NCBI GenBank assembly: GCA_030998015.1
Contig: JARWMV010000251.1
Location: 776,457-840,456, forward strand
Direction: 5' to 3'
Source of the DNA: Ceratorhiza oryzae-sativae
Taxonomy: Eukaryota > Basidiomycota > Agaricomycetes > Cantharellales > Ceratobasidiaceae
Length of the DNA stretch: 64,000 nt
The notes under the pieces were generated by a model, which was not told the DNA's origin, did not search any database, and was given only the letters and a program-made list of their open reading frames with translations. Each line of letters starts with the position of its first letter. Within the stretch, counting starts at the first letter, position 1. The position numbers and the translations under genes are program-made. Of this stretch, positions 52,196-64,000 are shown piece after piece.

Positions 52196-53335
52196 TGCCA
52201 GACCAAAGTTTCGCCGAAATTTGGCACCGGCGTGCCGACTTTCGGTGGGTTTGGACCTTGTCTCCTCCTGCTCCTGCTCTGGCATGCCAAAAGCCAAAAT
52301 TCCCACATCATTCCTGCGTGTGCCAAAAGCTCCTGCATTCGCCAGAATGTTAATGCAGGAATGCAGGAGTAGTGGGAGCGAGAACGCTGTGGTTTCAGGT
52401 AGAGGGTAAGTACGCCAGAAGGCTGAACTGCTGGATAGCACGTGAACTAGACATGTCGCAGAGGAATCCCGCCTGCCAGAATTCCAGCTGCTGCCAGCAA
52501 AAATTCTGGCGACTTACAGCGACACCAGTGCCAGCAGCAACTTTGTTGCACCAGTTCCGGCACCAGATTCTGCCGGATTCCCATGTGGGAAGTACCAAAA
52601 GATGCGTTGGAGCTCCCGCTTTCTGCGTTATCTTTTGTTTAATTTTCTGTGCAGTTACCATTGAGTTATTCAAAAATACTACAACTCAGTAAAAAGTGAG
52701 AAATGCAAACTGGGTGAGATACTTAAAACCATTGGCAAGATACATAGCTTATATCATTCGATGCGCCTGAAAGAGCTGAGTCCAACAGTTGTGCTTCCAT
52801 TTGTATCAGAAAAGTGCAGCTTGAGCTACAGGGGGTTTAAGGGGGACCACCCCTGACAGTGCCACATGCACTAGTAAAAGCAGCTGTGCAATCGCCGCCC
52901 CTGTGCACGCAATCAGTGCGATGCAGGTATTTCAGAATTGCTACAAATTCTTTGGTCCATCAGACAAGTTCCAGGGGGTGAAATTAGGGGAACATAGCCC
53001 CTCATGGCTGAAATAATAGCACTATCCCCTCTACAGCTTTTCTGAGAGGTTTGAAGTGTTTCTGATGCCATATATGAGCACAGTGCACCATTTTAACCCA
53101 ATCACATGTTCTGGAAATGCTTGAATAAATAGAATCCCATAAGTTTCTTTGCACAGACTTTGAGAGTTGCATATCTGCCCTGGTTTGTAGCACTGATAGG
53201 GAGTTCACATGGATGCAGGTTACTTATTATTGTTGTATTAGTCATTTTGGGGATTCCCAAGGCTCCTGAGCTGATCTGTCACACTAGTGTTGGTTGAATC
53301 TGGCCCCTTGGCTGTAAGACAGAGGTATGCACATT
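52196..53335. other. Unassigned repeat-like block between LINE remnant and LTR
   Basis: About 1.1 kb without coding potential. The part 52196-52620 is built of short related words (gccagaattcc, gctgctgccagc, tgcaggaatgcaggag), suggesting a non-autonomous element or degraded repeat. No terminal repeats could be fixed. Confidence 0.4.
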
Positions 53336-54115
53336 GTCATGACCCTCTGGAGGCTCCCTTGTGGAGCACTTAAGTAGTGGCTGCGTTGACGGTTTGGTGC
53401 TATGCAGTATGTATTGAGCGTTCTAGTTACAGTGTTTTGCTATGGTCTATGGTGGTTGACGAGATAAAGCAAGCTGAGGCATTCAGTCTTGCTTTACTCC
53501 CCTTATATACATGTGACTGCGGTTGCTGTGGTGGCCCCCCTTTCCTAAGCGCCGTCTACAGCAGTTATAGGTTCCATATAGTACTAGGTCTTAGGTAATC
53601 GTTTATCCTAAGTTTGTGCAGCTCCAAATCTTATAGAGCTGCGCAAGGTCCAAGGGTCATGTGACTTTTGGACTTAAGCACCTGGTGCTTAATCGCTGGA
53701 TAAGCGCCAAGGTCACGTGACAACTCACTCCTTGCTCCAAGTAACATGGGAGAGAAACGCTGGAGCGAGTTCAGGGTAACCACTGGTGCTTGATCGCTGA
53801 GTAAGCACCAAGGTCACGTGACAACTCGCTCCTCGCTCCAAGTAACATGGGAGAGAAATGCTGGAGCGAGTTCAGGGTAACCACCGGCGCTTAATCATTG
53901 GGTAAGCGCCGAGGTCACGTGACAACTCGCTCCTCGCTCCAAGTAACATGGGAGAGAAATGCTGGAGCAAGTTCAGGGTAACCACCAGCGCTTAATCGTT
54001 GGGTAAGCGCCAAGATCACGTGATCCTGTTCATGGTTTGTTCCGCTTCGGGAAAAATGCCATAAATCTGTACAATATTCGGTTGTTAGGTTATGTCTGCT
54101 AGGCGGGTCATAACA
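53336..54115 (-). repeat. 3' LTR of the gypsy element (complete, 780 bp)
   Basis: Bounded by inverted ends tgtcatgaccc and gggtcataaca and followed by a polypurine tract. The inner part (about 53640-54030) has a tandem repeat of about 101 bp in four copies, each with a cacgtg core and a ctccaagtaacatgggagag block. Confidence 0.85.
53690..54030. repeat. 101-bp tandem repeat inside the LTR
   Basis: The ggtcacgtg core recurs at about 53711, 53812, 53913 and 54013, a spacing of 100-101 bp. The right LTR shows the same unit at about 63768, 63866 and 63967. Located in the promoter-bearing U3 part, it could act as a repeated enhancer. Confidence 0.8.
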
Positions 54116-54129
54116 TTATCCCCCCCTTT
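54116..54129 (-). promoter_or_regulatory. Polypurine tract of the retrotransposon
   Basis: On the minus strand this 14-mer reads aaa, seven g, then ataa, directly against the 3' LTR start TGTTATGACCC. This is the expected primer site for plus-strand DNA synthesis and fixes the element's orientation. Confidence 0.75.
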
Positions 54130-54193
54130 GGACATGTCTTGGGGGATCTCAAGGCATGTTTCTTTTCTGGGTTCTAAAAGTTTCCAAAAGGTA

Positions 54194-54315
54194 TCTCATA
54201 TATTGAGGAGGTTAAGGGCGCTGGACTCGAACCAACGACCTTCCGTTCGATGTGTAATTGCTCAGCTAGGAGATGATGAGTCAGGCTAGACCCCTTAACC
54301 TCTACGCTACATGAG
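54194..54315 (-). other. tRNA-like Pol III box pair within a long stem
   Basis: On the minus strand a perfect A-box-like TAGCGTAGAGG (54299-54309) and a B-box GGTTCGAGTCC (54223-54233) lie 76 bp apart. The outer arms (ggttaaggg near 54210 with its complement near 54292, extended by atctcat near the edges) form a stem. A clean cloverleaf cannot be folded, because the D and anticodon arms do not pair. I regard it as a tRNA relic or tRNA-derived promoter rather than a working tRNA gene. Confidence 0.35.
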
Positions 54316-54411
54316 ATTACTTTCTCCTTGCTTATTTCCTTGTTTAAGCTTACTTCTCAACACATGGTCTGTGAATAAAACAGCTTATACAAAGATAATT
54401 TATTTTTATTT

Positions 54412-55587
54412 TTAAGGAAAAACAAAAAATGGCTTCCCTCCTGAGTATACCCAGTCTACGTTTTTGGATACCCATAAGTCCCCTTCTTCCCCCTCTATGT
54501 CCGTCCAACACTTCATTATGGCCGACCGGCTATTCCCCAGGATCACCGTCAGCTGTACCTTCATTGACTTCACATGAGCATATCTGCCTGTGAAGTCTGC
54601 CTCATACTGGCTCAGGGCTTTGAGCAAGTACTTCCCGTTTGACTGGACCATGTCATCCAGGATCCAGATGTCGGCGTCCTCCGACAGATTCCCCACGTTC
54701 CAGATGTTGCACATCCAGCTATGGGAGCCCTTGGATCGCGCATACGCCGTCTTCCCAGTTCCTGTTTCGCCTTCAATCACCAGGATGCGATGGCGCATGC
54801 CCCTCCCTCTCTTCTCAGCCTCTTCCGCAAACCATCGGTCCACCCTGTCAATGTGCACCCGGTCTTCTGGGACTTCCAACTCCACTGGGATTGCAGGCAT
54901 GCATCCCCGGTCCTCCTTATATGTGTACTCAGCATATGCTCATACCGAGTTCCACGTCATCACCATCTGGAGGGGGTGCAGGCGCTTGAATGCCTGGTAG
55001 TACTCTTTTTTTGTTGCCAAGGCAACAATCTCCGCCCTGTCCTCCAGGTCCGCCTCCGCCCTTGACCTTTTCCTGCCCTTCCCCTTCACCAGGATTTCCT
55101 CCAACCTTTCCAAGGTCAGGTCCCCCGCCATCAGCTCCTCTACCTCCTTGCCATTAGCTCCAACATCCTTCCAGAGGTAGTTGAAAGCCTCCCTTGCAGG
55201 GTTGCCTCCTGGTCCGTCCTTGAGGTCCTTCGGCAGGATGTTGGGGTGTTGCCCCTCGAAGTCCCAGAACCAGGTGTTCTGGGTGTTCCAGCCGCCCTTC
55301 CGCTCCTGACTGATGGAGAGGGCGTGGACATGGAGGGGCCGGGCCGGGTCGTAGTTTGGTTCCTCAGGGTTGTGGTGTTCCACCACTGCCAAAGTCGCCC
55401 AATGATTTGGCTGTTGGCGGCAGAACACCTCGTATCGGGCAATGAGCCCACTTGAGGGCTGATCGCGTAGCTTCAACCAGGTCAGCAGCACCGCCCTGGT
55501 CTGGACGCGGAACCGAGGGGCCGGCGCGGTTTCAGTCAGCTCTTCAGACCCTCGATCCGTCGGCGTAGGCCGCATAGAAGCGGGCAA
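54412..55587 (-). pseudogene. Rep-like replication initiator (HUH endonuclease + SF3 helicase), one in-frame stop
   Basis: Two halves in the same frame. The first (55587-54940) has the rolling-circle motifs of CRESS-DNA Rep proteins: motif I VLLTWLK at residues 33-39, motif II HVHAL at 86-90 and motif III YLWKD at 137-141 with the catalytic Tyr137. The second (54900-54412) has SF3 helicase features: Walker A GETGTGKT, Walker B-like IWILDD and motif C-like VILGN. Only a TGA at 54940-54942 and a short linker part them. A 30-nt intron there would be too short to trust. Rep nicks DNA at an origin and unwinds it during rolling-circle replication. Endogenous Rep copies are known in some basidiomycete genomes. 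The long open frame suggests recent activity or recent loss. No canonical nonanucleotide origin was found nearby. Confidence 0.8.
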
Positions 55588-55741
55588 GGGGGCTCAGCTT
55601 GATACCAAGGGTGCTGGCGATGGCGATGGCGACCTCCGCCCTTTGCTTGATTCGCTTGGCTGGGGTGTTGCCGCGTTCAATCCATTTCCGCTTAGCATCG
55701 TTTACAGTTTTAGAGGTATTTGGGGACTGGGAAGAGAGCAT
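55544..55741 (-). CDS. Small basic ORF overlapping the Rep start
   Basis: 65 residues (MLSSQSPNTSKTVNDAKRKW start), rich in Lys/Arg and Ala, with a helical middle. Overlaps the Rep start by 44 bp in another frame, as for coupled genes. No family recognised. It may simply be a leader ORF or an unspliced first exon. Confidence 0.35.
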   Translation of the reverse strand: MLSSQSPNTSKTVNDAKRKWIERGNTPAKRIKQRAEVAIAIASTLGIKLSPLARFYAAYADGSRV

Positions 55742-55860
55742 GAGAGTGCGGGTTATCTCGGGCCTTGTGCTTGTCTATATAAGCTGCAAGGTCCGTTTTG
55801 ATCGTCACATGACTCCGTCTTGCATTTGTTGTGATCACATGACCTTATTTCAGTGATGAC

Positions 55861-56250
55861 GCATCTCCGAGGGGTGCCCTTCCATCCGTTCCTCTGTGTC
55901 AGCCTTAAACCTTGCTGCGCTCGGGGCCTCCGCTCCTCCACTCCAGTCGGTGCCCCCTCTCCGACCCCTCCAGTAGTTCAGGGGATAGCAGCCATATCAT
56001 GTGACATTGTCTGGATCACATGACCTTGTTGTTTTCTTCGTCTGCTTGGGACACATGTTCGCTTTGTGTCACGTGACTCGTTTGTTTTCTTGCTTGTCCT
56101 TGTATGTCTTTCCCTTGTGACACATCTCCAAGGGGTGCCCTCCCATCTGTTCCTCTGCGTCGGCCTTGATCCTCACTACACTCGGGGCCCCTGCTCCCCC
56201 ACTTTGGTTGGTGCCCCCTCTCCGACCCCTCCAGTAGTTAGGGGATAGCG
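55861..56250 (+). repeat. Duplicated block of about 129 bp
   Basis: Copies at 55861-55990 and 56122-56250, roughly 85 percent identical by eye. Both run from catctcc to ccagtagtt(c)aggggatag. A stretch rich in TCACATGA/TCACGTGA sites lies between them. Confidence 0.8.
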
Positions 56251-56255
56251 TATAT

Positions 56256-56384
56256 TCACGTGACTAGGCTAGGTCATGTGATTCCTGTGCTTTGTTGTTT
56301 GTTTTCTGGCAGGTGGTCACGTGACTAGGCTAGGTCATGTGATTCCCGTGCTTTGTTGTTTGTTTTCTGGCAGGTGGTCATGTG
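56256..56384 (+). repeat. 61-bp tandem repeat, about 2.1 copies
   Basis: Unit starts tcacgtgactagg at 56256 and 56317, with a partial third start (tcatgtg) at 56378. The units carry cacgtg and catgtg cores. Confidence 0.8.
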
Positions 56385-56499
56385 TCTGTTGGTGTCACCT
56401 GACCAGACCTTGTTTTGATGTTTGTGCAAGTTATTGTGTTGCACTGTGATTTTTAATGTTTGTGGTTTTGTTGTTTTCCTTCCTCATCCTGTCTTTACT

Positions 56500-57041
56500 A
56501 TGTGTGTTATTTCCCTTAACTACAATCCCCTTGACTGCACCTGCTGGTCTCTCCCTGAGGGGGAGTACTGTGCCTACTGTGATGCTGTGTGCGACGCCTC
56601 CCTTGAAGACTTCTATCAAGGTGTTGGGGACTGGTTCTTCTGTGGGGTGCCAGGTATGTGTGTTTGTTCTTCGTCGTTCTCACGTAGCTAACTTGTTCTG
56701 TAGAAGAGTGCATCCTCCTTGATGGTCGGGCCCATGAGGCCACCCTTGAGCGTGTCTGGGCGCTCGTTGATCAGGACTACAAGTCCTTTGAGGAGTGGTC
56801 TCACCAGGCCGCTCTTGCCGAATTCTTCGAGGAGGGCTCTGCTCCCTTGTTTGATGAGGCTTCGCCCTTTGCAGCGTCTGGTTCTGGGTGTTTCCAGAAC
56901 TACATGGCTGACTTCCCAGGGGGGGAGGCTCCTTGGCTGCAGCCCACTACCCAGTCAGTTGTTCAGACCAATAAGAAGGATAAAAGGGGCAAGAAGCCCT
57001 ATACCCGGCCCCTCAAGGGCAAACGTAAGAATAGAGAGTAA
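56500..57041 (+). CDS. Spliced gene of unknown function, opposite strand to Rep
   Basis: Two exons, 56500-56653 and 56704-57041, join with GT-AG borders to 163 residues. The N-terminus is Cys-rich (CTCWSLPEGEYCAYCDAVCD), followed by an acidic, aromatic middle (DQDYKSFEEW, AEFFEEGSAPLFDEA). The end is strongly basic (KKDKRGKKPYTRPLKGKRKN), like a nuclear signal or nucleic-acid-binding tail. The clean intron and sharp charge segments support a real protein. In ambisense CRESS genomes this position encodes a capsid protein, but this protein is short and its basic part is at the C-terminus, so I do not call it a capsid. Neighbours: Rep module on one side, accessory ORF 57122-57977 converging on the other. 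Confidence 0.55.
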
Positions 57042-57121
57042 AAGGAAATGTATTAAGTTTGGTGTGTAAAGAAAATAAAACTCTTATACATTCGGGAGAC
57101 AATTTGTGGGAGGCAAAGTGG

Positions 57122-57977
57122 TCATATGGGGGTTGGTTCCAACAGTGGCACCTCCTCCAGAGCTTTGACAAGCTCGTTTTCCCACTGGTCCCAGTCCTGT
57201 TTGGCTTCCTCCGCAGCTGGGTCCAGGGTGGGTTCCTTTATTTCTGGCTTGGCTTCTTCCTCAGCCACGACCAGTGATTCTAGGCTTGATGTAAGGCTTG
57301 TCATATCAGTGTCGTAATTGGTGTTTTTGTTTGGGTGCACCTTCACCCAATTTCGGAAGTCACTTATGTTTGCCTGCTTCATCCTGATAGCAGTAAACAT
57401 CTCATCAGTGGTAGTTGCTTCGAGCAGTCCCACATATGGTGCAGCTGGTGTCAACTTCCATTCTTCCAGCAATGCCTTTGCCCGGCGCTCCACCTCCCAG
57501 TCCCCTCTGTCTGCCATTTGGCCTGTGGCCCTCCTCTGTTGTCTTGCTGCCTTGGTCACCACATCGACTGTTGGTCCCATGATATTGTCGATGACATACA
57601 TTTGGTGTTCTTAACAAGGCATTTCTTGTTGTTGGCTTCCGGCTTCCATGCCATGTCAGGACCCCTAACCTGGGATCCAGGTACTTGTCATCGTCAATCC
57701 AGTTCCTTTCATCCCTTAACTTCTTTGGGATGTACACTAGGTTAGCCCCTGGCAACAGTCGTTCGGCGTACCTCTGGGCGTCTTCCACACTGGAGCAGTA
57801 CATCCCTGGTTTAGGACGATTTTCCCTGCCAGGGTAGGGTGCTGGCCGCCTGGTGGTGGGTGGCTGCCGAAGTGGGGCCACCTGATTTTCAGCAAGTGGG
57901 GTGTAACGGTTGGGATGTGCAACTGGGTGAGTGACGAAAGGCATGTTTTGGGGTTTCGCAGGTGTGTTGTGGTGCAA
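57122..57977 (-). CDS. Accessory ORF downstream of pol, unknown function, one frame break
   Basis: Two overlapping frames, 57977-57405 and 57601-57122, appear to be one protein with a frame change near 57600-57650. The first part is Pro-rich, then CSSVEDAQRYAERLLPGANLVYIP. The second has an Arg-rich helix (ARQQRRATGQMADRGDWEVE) and an acidic C-terminus (EEEAKPEIKEPTLDPAAEEA). No domain recognised. It starts right after the chromodomain ORF, on the same strand, so it could be a third retrotransposon gene or part of the inserted module. Confidence 0.45.
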
Positions 57978-58031
57978 GTGAGTTGGTAGAGCAGGCTCTG
58001 GACTCTCTTGGGTATCCTGGATGGCTCCTTT

Positions 58032-61000
58032 TTAAAGCTTTCCAGATCCTTGTTTGGTTCTCTTTGGCCTGCCTTTCGAGTCACCTGAGTGCTGACTTGT
58101 CTTGACTGGCATTGGTGCATCTGGTAAGCGCCTTTGCAAGTCATTTAGAACCTCTTTCATGTCAGCAAACTTGCTGGCACGTTCCATTGTGTCTTCTATT
58201 GGGTCGTAGCCCTTCCATCTGATTTGGTAAAACAGCTCGCCATTCCGCCATTCATAATTTGCAATGTGGTCCACCTCGTATTCCTCCTCTCCTTTTTCCG
58301 TTATGATTGGTGGTGGTTTGGCCTGCCTTCTTTGGAAGTCTTTATCTTCTGTGAATGGCGAGAGGAGATTTACATGGAATACATTGTGTACACGTATGGT
58401 TTTAGGTAGGTCCAGGCGATATGCATGGGATGAGATCTTTTCTGTGATTTCAAAGGGCCCCCCTTTTCGGTTGTCCAGTTTCTTGGAGGGTCTCTTGGAC
58501 GAGAGGTTTGTTAGGAGCAGCCAAACCTTGTCTCCTACCTTGAATTCCCTCCCTTTCTTTTCCATTTGTTGGTGTAATTCCATTGAGGCTCTTGCCTCAT
58601 CCCATACCTTTTCCATTTGATTACGCATGTTGTCTGCAGCGGTGCCTCAGATGGTTCTTCTCCCTCTCGGACAACCCATCTTGGGTTTTTTCCATATACT
58701 GTTTCAAATGGGGTTTGTCCTGTTGTAGCATTTACGTGGTTGTTATGGCAGAATTCGGCAATGGGTAACCATTTTACCCAATCATCTTGTCTATAATTGC
58801 AGAAGGTTCTTAAGAACCCTTCTACCCATTGATTTGTCCTTTCCGACAGACCATCTGTTTCTGGATGGAAAGCAGTGGAGAATCTGGGCTTTGTCCCAAT
58901 TCCTTTGTATAGGGCTTTTAGGAATTGGCTGTTAAAGGTTGGCCCTCGGTCTGAGACAGTGGTTTCTGGGGTCCTGTGATGTCTCCATACTTCCCTTATG
59001 AATATTTCTGCCAGTTCTTCTGCATTGGTGCTCTCCAGACATGGTACAAAATGGGCCTGCCAGGAGAAGCGATCTACAACTGTCAAGATACTGTCGTACC
59101 CTTTGAGACAGGTAATTTGACAATGAAATCATATGCGACATCTGCCCATGGTTTCCATGGGATTGGTAAGGACTTCAGGGGAGAGCCTTGTTTGTGTCCT
59201 TTGCTTCTTTGACATGTTTCACAAGATTCCACGTATCGGTTTACTTGGGCCTTCATTCCTGGCCAATAGTAATCCCTTGATAGTAATTCTAGTGTTTGGG
59301 CTTGTCCCTGATGACCTGCCACTGGGGCGTCATGGCACTCCTCAAGGAGACTCAACCTCAAGTCCTTGTCATCGGGATGTAGAGCCTATCGTCATACCTT
59401 AATAGGCCCTCCTTCATTTCATACCGTCTAAATTCCTTCTGTACTGAGGGCGGTAGTTGTTCTTTATTTGCCACTCAGCCTTAAGGATCTGATAGATTCG
59501 TCTTCTTCCTGAGCTTCTTTAAGCTCTTCCCAGAAATTCCCCTGTACTTCTGCCATGAAACCTATGAACCTTTCTTCTGGAATCATGATCTGTGGTTCCA
59601 TAGGGGTATCCCCATGGTCGCTCCTTCTGGAAAGGGCATCTGGCTTCTGTGAGAGTTTCCCTGGTCTATACACAATCTGAAAATTGAAGGGTGCCAGAGT
59701 GAGATACCATCTGGCATGCCTTCTATTCCACATCTGGGCATTTTGCCAGTACTGGAGGTTCCTATGGTCAGTGTATATCACAATAGGTTCCTCTGTCCCT
59801 TCTAAGTATAACCTCCAGTGCTCTAAGGACCTAACAATTGCAAGCAACTCCTTGTGTGTAGGTGTCATAATTTTTCTCTGGTGGGGTGAAGCTCTTCGAT
59901 AGGAAGGCAATTGGATGCAATCGGTTGTCATCACCCTTTTGGCTTAGTACCGCCCCCATGGCCACTCCTGAGGCATCTGTTTCCAGTATGTATGGCCTGT
60001 TTGGGTTTGGGTGGATCAGGACTGGTTCTCTTGCTACTGCTTCTTTGATAGCTTCAAATGCTTCCTGTTGTTTTCTTTCCCACCGGAATTTGACATCTTT
60101 TTGGGTGAGATCTGTGAGGGGTTTGGCTAAGGTACTAAACTTCTCTATCCACCTTCTATAGAACCCCACGAAGCCTAGGAAGGCTTGGACTTCTTTTACT
60201 GTGTTAGGTTCTGGCCATTCTAGAACTGCCTTTACCTTTTCCTTTTCCATCGATATCCCTTCTGGGGATATGACAATTCCAATGAAGCTTACCTCCTTCA
60301 CAAAGAACTGACACTTGTGTGGTTTGAGGAAGAGGTGGTTTTCCCTCATTCTTCTTAACACTTCCCTGACATGTTGTATGTTCTTCCCTGTTTCTGGAAA
60401 ACACTAGTACATCGTCCATGTAGATTACCACATAATCGTCTATTATATCACGGAACTTTTCCATCATGAACCTGGTAAAGGTTCTTGGTCCTTCTTTTAC
60501 TCCGAATGGCATGACCAAGCATTCAAACTGGCCTTCTCCTGTCCTGAAAGCTGTTTTCCATTCGTCTCCCTCTTTTACCCTGATGTTGTTGAACCCCCAT
60601 CGAACATCCATTTTTGAATAGATGGTTGCATCCTTCAGTCTCTCAATCAATTCTATTTGGATTGGAAGTGGAAACCTGTCTGGCTTGGTGATGTCATTCA
60701 TCTTACGGTAGTCGACTACCAACCTAAGCCCTCCATCTGCTTTGTTCACATAGAAACAGGGTGCAGCTACAACTGACTGGCTGGGCCTTATTTTCCCGTT
60801 TCTTAGTTCCTCCTCTAGGTACTCCCTGAGCGCCTTTGTTTCTGCTGGCGACATACTGTACCTCTTTGCAGGCTTTGGCAGCTCGCTCCCTCGATCAGGT
60901 CCATTTTGAAGTCTAGGTTACCTTGGTGGGGTGGAAGTTCTCGGAAACCTTCTTCCCCAAATAGGTCTTCAAAATCCCTAAATTCTTCTGGGATTTGTAG

Positions 61001-61436
61001 GCTTTCACTTGCTGCCCTTGCCTTGATTTTCTGGGTATGAGATGGTAAGGTCTTTCCAATCTATGATAGGTTCTGCTTCTTCAAGCCATTCTTTCCCTAG
61101 GACTATGTCTGTGTCACCTAGGGTCATTACATAAAGGGAGCATTTTAGTGTCTTCCCTTCCACTTCGATGTTTAGTTCTGCCCTTTCTTCTATGGCATCC
61201 TTGATTTCATTTCCATCAATGGCCACAATTGATTTCTTGTGTTTGAGGGGAGTGGTTGGAATCCCTTTTTCCCTTGAATAGGCCTTATCGATGAAGTTGG
61301 TTGAAGATCCTGAGTCAATCAGCGTCTTAGCTGGTTCCATGATTCCCTCTACCGTAGTGTATATTATTGATTGATTACTAGACTTCTTGAGGTAACATAC
61401 ATCTGCGGTAGGGGTTATATTGGGGTCCTCCAACAT
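58032..61436 (-). pseudogene. pol: Gypsy pol: protease, RT, RNase H, integrase, chromodomain (frameshifted)
   Basis: Protease with LIDSGSS near 61320. Reverse transcriptase with PLPIQIELIERL near 60665, VMPFGVKEGPRTF near 60505 and active-site YMDD near 60420. RNase H with ILETDASG near 59980 and YTDHRNLQYW near 59775. Integrase zinc finger (HH...CETCQRS near 59225) and catalytic core with VVDRFS near 59075, VSDRGPTFNS near 58960 and HPETDGLSERTNQ near 58860. The C-terminal GPFEITEKI region is followed by a chromodomain (YEVDHIANYEWRNGELFYQIRWKGY near 58285-58210). Order and chromodomain mark a Ty3/gypsy chromovirus. At least five frame changes separate these blocks (near 61.0, 60.35, 59.85, 59.1 and 58.6 kb), so no full polyprotein is encoded. 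Confidence 0.88.
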
Positions 61437-61453
61437 GGAAGTGGTAGGACCAA

Positions 61454-63279
61454 TTAGTTTTCCGACTCAGAGCTGCTTTCTTCCTCAACTTGTCTGCTGG
61501 CCTTCCCTTGTATCTTAGCTTTGTCGTAGGTCCACTGGCCTCGGCACTCCTTCAGGACATGCCCTGATTTACTGCATTTGATACAGAGTCCTTCTTTCCT
61601 TCGCCTGTCCTTTTCACTGTTTGGTATCCTTACCATGTTGTTGGTTTGGGTATTCCCCTGTTTGCCGCTGGTCCCTAAAGGCTTGTTCCCCCCTTGTTTG
61701 TATTTGCTGGTGCCCAGGTTGAATTTGATGAGTTGCTGGTCCTTGTATTCATTTTCTGGTTGCAAACTGCATGTCCATTTTGCAGGCAAAGTCAATTAAT
61801 TGATCTAAGGTATATGATGGACCTTCAGCCTCATTTGCCAGTACTTCAATCCTTAAGATCTCTTGTCGTACTTCGGGTTTTAACCCTTCCCTGAATTGGT
61901 CCTTGAGGGCTTCCTGGTTCCAGTCTACCTCTTGGATCAGGATCCGGAATTGGGTAGCATAATCCAATGCACTCTTGGTCTGTGTTAATTTCCTTAGTTT
62001 CCGGATGGTCTTTTCCTTTATGACTGGGTCATTAAAAGCATCCAGGAATCCCTTCCTGAAATCCTTCCAGGATGCAAGAATACCTGTGTGTTCGCCTGCT
62101 AGTAGTTTCCGGCGGTAAGGTTGTGCCCAGTTTGCTGCTTCCCCATCCTCCATGTTCATTAGCACAGCAGATATCTTTTTTCGGTCATCAAAGGCTGATT
62201 CGTCATAGTCAGCAAAGAAAAGTTCCATGCTGATTATGAAGTTCTCTGCTTCCTTCCCCTTTTTCCCATTAAATTTGCTGGGTCTCCCTAGTCTCGCCTC
62301 CTTAGGAGTGTGGTTTGCAGCAAGGGTAGGTTGGTTTGCTTGGGATGGAGGTTCTGTTCGGGGTCTTATTGTGGACTCAGCCTGGAAGGTTCTTCCCAGA
62401 AAGGGTGTTCGTACTGGGGAGGCTGAGGGGGATCGTGAGGGGCTTCCTATGACCACCCTAGTTCTTCCCCTGGTTTCTTCTGTCCTTTCCCTTGGCCTTC
62501 CTGCTTCAGTTGTTTTCCGGAGCTCATTTCCTAGATCGGTTACCGTTGTTCTAGTGCGATTAGGATCTCCCCTGTGTTTTCGGTTTTCTTCTCTAAGCTT
62601 TCGAGCTTTCGCTCTTGCATTCCCAGTACCCGGTTTATTTCCATGGAGATGTCCTTTAATTCTTTTATCAGGTTCCCCATTTCTGCTTTTAGGTCGTCCT
62701 GGTTCTTTGCCACATAGAGGACATTTTTGTTGGATGTTTCCATTGACCTTACCATCCAGTCCACGTTTCCTTCTTGTCGGGTTAGTGATATTTGACACTG
62801 ATTTATACCTGTGATTGCCTTTTCTAGTTCCCTATGATTATTGTCTCTAAGTTCCTTGAGCCCGCCCTGATGGCTGTGGCAATGGTGTGAATAGGGTTGG
62901 CAGTGGCTATGGCTGGGACCTGGCTGGGGTTGTGTCCTTGCCTTCTTCGCCAAGGCCGTGCCTTGTTGTATATGGTTCGGGTCATATCTTCTACCTCATC
63001 CCTCTCTGGATTTGAGATATCTTCTGGGTCTGGATTTATCAGGTGAATTGGCGGTTGAGGGCTGCGGAGTGGTATTCCCCCTATTTCCCCTCCCAGGATG
63101 GGGGCCCGAGTGGGGTTGGGTTGAGCCACTGGTCGTGGGTTTTGTGGCAACCCCCCTGGCATTCCTTGGAGGGTCTCATCTGGGTTACCTTCAGCCTCTG
63201 GGGAAGCAATGGGTTTGGGTGATTGTGGCCTACTATTTGCCACTCTGCTTTGAGATCGAGTTTGTGGTCTCTGTGACAT
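61454..63279 (-). pseudogene. gag: Gypsy gag with CCHC zinc knuckle (frameshifted)
   Basis: Starts MSQRPQTRSQSR at 63279. It contains a Pro-rich head, a coiled-coil region near 62830-62560 (QDDLKAEMGNLIKELKDI), and a capsid-like core near 62270-61800 (RPSKFNGKKGKEAENFIISM, SWKDFRKGFLDAF). The nucleocapsid part has CIKCSKSGHVLKECRG near 61580. Three frame breaks (about 62.85, 62.55 and 61.77 kb) interrupt it. Confidence 0.82.
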
Positions 63280-63400
63280 AGTTTCTTTATGTTCTCTTAT
63301 GTATCACAGGAGTTAGCTGGTTTTCTCGTGTACTCAGCCCTTAGTATCTGTGCAGTATACTTATGTTCGCCACTAGTTAAGTTAAGAGCTTGCTTTATAA

Positions 63401-64000
63401 TGTCGTGACCCTCTGGAGGCTCCCTTGTGGAGCACTTAAGTAGTGGCTGCGTTGACGGTTTGGTGCTATGCAGTATGTATTGAGCGTTCTAGTTACAGTG
63501 TTTGCTATGGTCTATGGTGGTTGACAAGATAAAGCAAGCTGAGGCGTTCAGTCTTGCTTTACTCCCCTTATATATGTGACTGCGGTTGCTGCGGTGGCCC
63601 CCTTTCCTAAGCGCGTCTACAGCAGTTATAGGTTCTATATAGTACTAGGTCTTAGGTAATTGTTTATCTAAGTTTGTGCGGCTCCGAATCTTATAGAGCC
63701 GCAAGGTCGAGGGTCATGTGACTTTTGGACTTAAGCACCCAGGGCTTAATCGCTGGATAAGCGCCAAGGTCACGTGACAACTGCTCCTGCTCCAAGTAAC
63801 ATGGGAGAGAAATGCTGGAGCAAGTTCAGGGTAACCACCAGCGCTTGATCGCTGAGTAAGCACGAGGTCACGTGACAACTCGCTCCTCGCTCCAAGTAAC
63901 ATGGGAGAGAAATGCTGGAGCGAGTTCAGGGTAACCACCGGCGCTTAATCGTTGGGTAAGCACCGAGGTCACATGACAACTCGCTCCTCGCTCCAAGTAA
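63401..64000 (-). repeat. 5' LTR of the gypsy element, partial (window end)
   Basis: Direct repeat of 53336 onward, 600 bp visible. Starts tgtcgtgacc. Differs from the other LTR by single-base losses and substitutions (for example tgtttgc against tgttttgc). Next to it, on the inner side, about 120 bp of leader with the expected primer-binding position precede gag. Confidence 0.85.

Follow-up and report, generated by a model that had tools for sequence, protein, structure and literature searches.

A geminivirus-type Rep gene between pol and the 3' long terminal repeat of a Ty3/gypsy chromovirus family in Ceratorhiza oryzae-sativae, probably an ancient capture kept under selection

We have analysed a window of 64,000 nucleotides from Ceratorhiza oryzae-sativae (assembly GCA_030998015.1, contig JARWMV010000251.1, positions 776,457 to 840,456), to which all positions refer, and whose last 10.7 kb are occupied, on the minus strand, by a sushi/Tf1-like Ty3/gypsy chromovirus that contains a Rep-like gene between pol and its 3' long terminal repeat (LTR). 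The 5' LTR (63401..64000) is incomplete because the end of the window is also the end of the contig. Next to it lies a putative 12-nt primer-binding site (63387..63398), whose complement is found in the LTR at 34 nt beyond the first base of the TATA-like sequence; a self-priming site complementary to the 5' end of the RNA is a feature of Tf1/sushi elements. Gag (61749..63303, with Retrotrans_gag and Ty3_capsid matches at 61749-62831) is followed by pol (58032..61466), which includes protease, reverse transcriptase (RT), RNase H, integrase and chromodomain and is split into several frames in this copy. Pfam matches to gag, protease, RT, a Tf2-type SH3 domain and a chromodomain were found in this order on the minus strand, and RNase H and the integrase core, which lie in pieces outside the Pfam scan, were placed by homology, as the closest pol relatives carry both. 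The predicted pol order, protease, RT, RNase H and integrase and then a chromodomain, is that of a Ty3/gypsy chromovirus. At the other end, a polypurine tract (54116..54131, CCAAAGGGGGGGATAA on the minus strand) adjoins the 3' LTR (53335..54115, minus strand, TGTCATGACC...GGTCATAACA in plus orientation), which is a direct repeat with 63401-64000 and whose borders are corroborated by other copies through their LTR ends and duplicated target sites; either TTATCCCCCC or TGATCCCCCC adjoins the LTR in all ten copies compared. A sequence-only reading had described a chromovirus with both LTRs, polypurine tract and gag-pol, and this holds for the gag and pol domains, the polypurine tract and the 3' LTR, the 5' LTR being present in part.

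The region between pol and the polypurine tract, where the same reading had placed a Rep block at 54.2-57.1 kb, contains several features. ORF-A, a sense open reading frame (ORF) of ~300 aa (57122..58031, minus strand), follows the chromodomain; it is broken here and open in several other copies. ORFx (56500..57041) is a small gene on the plus strand with two exons (56500-56653 and 56704-57041) and a predicted 50-bp GT-AG intron, and its product has a Cys-rich N-terminus and a basic C-terminus. An intergenic region of 800 bp (55699..56499), with 136-bp and 61-bp direct repeats, separates ORFx from the divergent Rep gene (54412..55698, minus strand, 428 codons plus stop), in which HUH motifs, a part similar to the geminivirus Rep central domain and motifs of the superfamily 3 (SF3) helicase type can be recognised. 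The motif alignment bears out the claim that a Rep-like gene with three HUH motifs and an SF3 helicase lies between pol and the 3' LTR, and it is on the same strand as the element; the block does include Rep, together with ORFx on the plus strand.

Rep in the window copy is free of gaps but contains two in-frame stops, and the 428-codon frame is open in five of 11 copies (L017, L019, L023, L027 and L029). HUH motifs I, II and III are present in order, and the alignment of homologues from Ceratobasidium and metagenomes has conserved columns LLTW, HVH/HIH, FWDFEGxHPNI, YLWK, GxTGTGKT, ILDD and ILGN, the last three corresponding at the motif level to the SF3 Walker A, Walker B and motif C. The FWDFEGxHPNI column is similar to the geminivirus GRS motif. 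A motif string with loose spacing (UUTU, HUH, YxxK, GxxGxGK[ST], UUDD, UUxN) matched nine of the 11 Rep proteins (P0026 and P0028 being the exceptions), none of 20,000 shuffles of P0001 and none of 120 pol proteins, and the HUH, the YxxK and the Walker A lysine are kept in 20 out of 20 aligned copies. Furthermore, PF08283, the geminivirus Rep central domain, matched six of 17 Rep homologues weakly (E 0.001 at best, which does not reach the cut-off); the match is nearly full length and positioned between the HUH and helicase motifs. We use the label geminivirus-type Rep because of the motifs, their order and this one weak family match, and we consider it very probable, from the motif evidence, that Rep is a true HUH-SF3 protein.

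The N-terminal part of Rep (55500-55698) also harbours a second frame (FYAAYADGSRVRRAD) that appears to be conserved between species at least as well as the Rep frame, and between subfamilies the Rep frame shows hardly any variation at first codon positions in this part, although the sites are few. Some Ceratobasidium gene models fuse this second frame with Rep, and it is possible that it represents an overlapping exon.

The copies were searched for in the whole genome (48.8 Mb, 253 contigs), where the block has at least 68 matches (40 of 197 candidates scored) and a Rep-like protein is found at at least 95 places (231 candidates). When the search was started from RT, with no Rep in the query, and the best 40 of 333 candidates were taken, these being the copies closest to the window element, 26 had a listed Rep 3.8-6.6 kb downstream and on the right strand; eight of the remaining 14 had a full or partial Rep, two ran off the contig and four had none in the stretch read, so that Rep is downstream in 34 of the 38 testable matches among these best 40. 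The one-off nested insertion that the sequence-only reading had considered is contradicted by this count. That reading had also suggested looking at the block in other LTR-bounded copies, and it was found there at an unchanged position: LTR, Rep, ORFx and the integrase end follow each other in one order in all ten copies selected through their block match, with RT in nine (L025 being the exception) and the outer 5' LTR within the fetched stretch in six. Ten Rep places were also taken at random from 61 whose context had not been seen, and an LTR adjoined Rep in all of them, with the pol end at the expected offset in eight. This position of Rep is shared by young copies, a second 3' subfamily and an old subfamily whose pol is ~65% identical. 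We hold with great confidence that the captured and selected Rep is a core gene of this family.

The LTRs have TG...CA ends and are flanked by short target duplications, as in chromoviruses. In the 15 copies with both outer LTR ends, the 5-bp target duplications outside the LTRs are perfect in 12, while C247 keeps four of five bases and C233 and C19 have none; therefore, the composite integrates as a unit. The two LTRs of a copy are 95-99% identical in 14 of these 15 copies and 86.5% identical in C11, whose 5' end is badly placed, and in six copies 135 of 149 LTR-pair differences count as CpG-type under a loose test. These copies are young.

The U3 of the LTR contains tandem units of ~101 bp (53675..54023, minus strand, 3.4 copies), each with short hairpins. 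We compared these units at 53675-54023 and 63739-64000 and in loci L011-L030 and L072-L091, and in 14 of 15 copies the two LTRs differ in length by ~1-3 units of 101 or 113 bp, C64 showing a net difference of 81 bp. The longer LTR is the 3' one in nine copies and the 5' one in five, with one copy having equal LTRs; once C233 and C19, the copies without duplications, are excluded, 12 of 13 copies still differ in unit number. Such differences would be commoner than reverse-transcriptase slippage alone is expected to give. The copies in C19 and C22 (L090/L091 and L080/L081) have a common outer right flank, C19 lacking the target duplication, and they are possibly a recombinant between copies. C143 (L101; G000:C143:10368-16085) carries two Rep-bearing 3' ends in tandem, 3.9 kb apart, and is perhaps a truncated tandem element.

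A comparison between subfamilies suggests that Rep is maintained. The second subfamily (L057, L062, L067-L069) has a Rep 81-85% identical to that of the main family, with LTRs ~80% and pol, where read, 95-99% identical, and L056 is intermediate between both. Between these subfamilies the Rep dN/dS is 0.10-0.12 over residues 66-428 and 0.14-0.18 for the whole Rep (six pairs; the second-subfamily copies contain stops or gaps, and stop codons and gaps were skipped). Transversion sites fall on the three codon positions of Rep as 18/14/47 (third positions, p = 1.7e-6), and two non-coding control stretches, with 6/16/11 and 1/2/2, have no such third-position bias. All of this points to strong purifying selection on Rep between subfamilies. 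An older subfamily (C20:293937 and C12:303363) has a Rep 69-72% identical to that of the main family, and in the C20 copy, whose RT-INT (RT to integrase) region is 65% identical to the main family, LTR and pol are in place beside Rep.

The nearest named relatives are in Ceratobasidium sp. AG-Ba (Rep 74-75%, pol 71%). Identities among the main family, the old subfamily and AG-Ba are 69-77% for Rep and 65-72% for RT-INT, so that Rep and pol appear similarly diverged across lineages, and the outlying P0027 has a Rep 63-68% identical to those of these three. In the pol tree the two lineages of this genome group with AG-Ba P0075-P0077 (support 0.89-0.96) and with P0080 (1.00). None of the 72 Rep matches (7,996 candidates scored, some without names) is named Rhizoctonia solani, a name that many of the pol matches do bear (the 120 best-scoring of 1,999 were listed). 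Neither an IMG/VR protein search nor a plasmid tblastn search found relatives; a DNA pattern for the GRS-like motif gave 23 candidate IMG/VR contigs. The position of the block in many LTR-bounded copies, the duplications outside the LTRs and the selection between subfamilies agree with the capture by a retroelement that the sequence-only reading had put forward, and our favoured interpretation, which we regard as probable, is an ancient capture of a geminivirus-type Rep by a chromovirus lineage that has since kept it under selection.

Several results weigh against this interpretation. With respect to the protein, no Rep member passes the Pfam cut-off, PF08283 matches none of this genome's own Rep proteins, and unrelated families score similarly to it (Jiv90, E 0.0048 and 0.00083). 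The HUH part alone matched no Pfam family in seven members, PF00799 gave no match, and a search against proteins of known structure matched no Rep. Walker B is altered in three of the 20 aligned copies (L057, L062 and L068), and the residue following the Walker lysine in another set of three (L017, L062 and L069). With respect to the family, four RT copies have no Rep in the stretches read; in two of them that were followed further, the element sequence ends at 56692 and 57090. Within the main family the Rep dN/dS is 0.41 and 0.65 (two pairs), a weak constraint that would be expected because dead copies decay by CpG transitions, and in fact 86% of Rep differences are in a CpG context. The Rep tree leaves the lineage order unsettled (support 0.53) and hence gives no co-phylogeny, and adjacency of Rep and pol was not seen in Ceratobasidium, where the listed AG-Ba pol entries have no locus tags. 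With respect to replication, there is no TAATATT-type origin on either strand in 53.3-64 kb, divergent origins being possible, and the hairpins of the LTR, present in the main family, were not adopted as an origin because the second subfamily does not keep them.

As for the other genes of the element, the pieces of ORFx and ORF-A matched no Pfam family and no capsid gene was recognised among them. The codon-position test for ORFx was not significant (5/1/5 and 3/1/6, that is, 10 and 11 sites), and ORF-A shows a weak codon constraint (28/19/40, p = 0.01). ORF-A exists as two lineages ~71% alike in DNA (L025, L027 and L029 versus the rest), which are shuffled among copies with near-identical pol and Rep; therefore, modules recombine. 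Between Rep and the polypurine tract there is a tRNA-like hairpin (54180..54330, minus strand, fold z-score -3.7) whose stem arms are largely kept in copies with a diverged loop, and it contains RNA polymerase III promoter-like sequences that we take to be an A-box and a B-box; a tRNA gene at 54.2-54.3 kb was rejected, as ARAGORN and Rfam call none despite this hairpin. The fold of the intergenic region is ordinary (z -0.75). The observed/expected CpG ratio increases along 53335-63300, being 0.30 for RT, 0.63 for Rep and 0.72 for the LTR, and the divergence between copies is 5.9% in Rep and 0.8% in RT.

When compared to known systems, the element shares with Tf1/sushi chromoviruses gag, protease, RT, integrase, chromodomain, LTRs with TG...CA ends, 5-bp duplications, the putative self-priming site and the polypurine tract, and its nearest pol is a 'Retrotransposable element Tf2 protein' from Ceratobasidium sp. 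AG-Ba (71%). Unlike them, it adds ORF-A, the antisense ORFx and Rep ahead of the 3' LTR. Rep follows the geminivirus and genomovirus proteins, that is, the HUH-SF3 Reps of the circular Rep-encoding single-stranded (CRESS) DNA viruses, in the order motif I, HUH, GRS-like, YxxK, Walker A, Walker B and motif C. However, it resides in a retroelement, no capsid gene was recognised and no canonical origin, a CRESS stem-loop with a TAATATTAC-like nonanucleotide, was found in the TAATATT scan of the element. Helitrons also have an HUH-type initiator in a eukaryotic transposon, but here the motif set is of the SF3 type and there are LTR borders and 5-bp target duplications (Helitron ends were not searched for). 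Helitrons have characteristic ends and no target duplication. A parallel in fungi is the geminivirus-like transposon of Tuber melanosporum (Liu et al. 2011, PMC3198968), in which a Rep gene is present in many genome copies; according to its description, it has 37-bp terminal inverted repeats (TIRs) and two transposase ORFs and lacks obvious target duplications. Both systems have a geminivirus-like Rep on a multicopy transposable element of a fungal genome, whereas LTRs, a reverse transcriptase and 5-bp duplications distinguish ours from the Tuber element as described there; no inverted pair of >=30 bases exists in 45-64 kb, and none of the scanned pieces matched a transposase. Accessory domains such as a chromodomain or an exonuclease are known from LTR retrotransposons, and insect retrotransposons, mostly LINE-like elements, have captured a viral SF1 RNA helicase, as stated in passages of PMC6338049. 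This insect case is alike in that a viral replication-type domain is kept in a retrotransposon, but it concerns an RNA-virus helicase, while here a DNA-virus-type nickase-helicase is a separate gene of an LTR element. The passages of PMC4112212 and PMC3411680 hold no precedent for a Rep-bearing LTR element, and none was found among the best-ranked titles and abstract openings of our literature searches, whose coverage left out most of the subscription literature.

We propose that a chromodomain Ty3/gypsy family of the sushi/Tf1-like type would long ago have captured a geminivirus/genomovirus-type Rep between pol and the 3' LTR, which would have been retained as a selected gene of the element. 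The element would move by ordinary self-primed reverse transcription and integrase, and Rep may be expressed from its own divergent promoter region. Rep could then nick and unwind the DNA of the element, with unintegrated or circular cDNA as the most plausible substrate, and raise the number of cDNA molecules ahead of integration. Whether Rep would act catalytically on the DNA of the element is, in our judgement, an evenly balanced matter. A stronger version, with two replication chemistries in which integration through RT and integrase would alternate with Rep-driven rolling-circle multiplication of circular or LTR-joined DNA between jumps, seems to us unlikely. The hypervariable U3 tandem units could be a footprint of rolling-circle replication.

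The main rival, given the strong CpG decay, is that Rep is kept for a role directed to the host, acting on the cell cycle or DNA synthesis, or damping DNA methylation to relieve silencing, and not for copying the element. Geminivirus Rep binds the retinoblastoma protein. Methylation pressure is likely because the copies show heavy CpG decay (the 86% of Rep differences mentioned above), and geminivirus Rep lowers MET1/CMT3, as cited in a passage of PMC6338049. However, the HUH and the nicking tyrosine are kept in 20 out of 20 copies and a binding role alone would need none of them, and we consider this explanation possible but rather improbable. Much less credible is a defence of the host or the element against single-stranded DNA mycoviruses by look-alike interference; geminivirus-related DNA mycoviruses do exist, as passages of PMC10224137 report, but it is the element that spreads the gene and within which the gene is selected, its nicking residues are intact, and our searches found no single-stranded DNA virus as a close relative. 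According to a third explanation, a separate Rep-based transposon or viral relic would be nested in one gypsy copy, the block being foreign to the family. The divergent Rep and ORFx pair around an intergenic region does resemble a small virus genome, and Rep is CpG-richer than RT (0.63 vs 0.30), but the main, second and old subfamilies all have the block at one and the same site, all ten random Rep places adjoin an LTR, the target duplications are outside the LTRs and no inverted-repeat pair of >=30 bases exists within 45-64 kb. As a one-off event it is refuted by the copy comparison and the duplications, as an ancestral event it amounts to capture, and we give it very little credence. Finally, that Rep is a neutral passenger, recently picked up and then amplified, would account for the stops in many copies and the weak within-family constraint but is hardly tenable, as dN/dS is 0.10-0.12 between subfamilies, the codon-position bias of Rep is absent from both non-coding controls and the protein is 69-77% identical across lineages with its motifs kept.

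Ancient capture followed by retention under selection thus remains our favoured interpretation, and it raises the question of what use a rolling-circle initiator is to an element that copies itself through RNA. Geminivirus-type Reps would have, in addition to the TIR transposon of Tuber, another type of fungal carrier, and a DNA-virus-type replication initiator serving as a selected gene of an LTR element would link two kinds of mobile DNA that have been thought separate.

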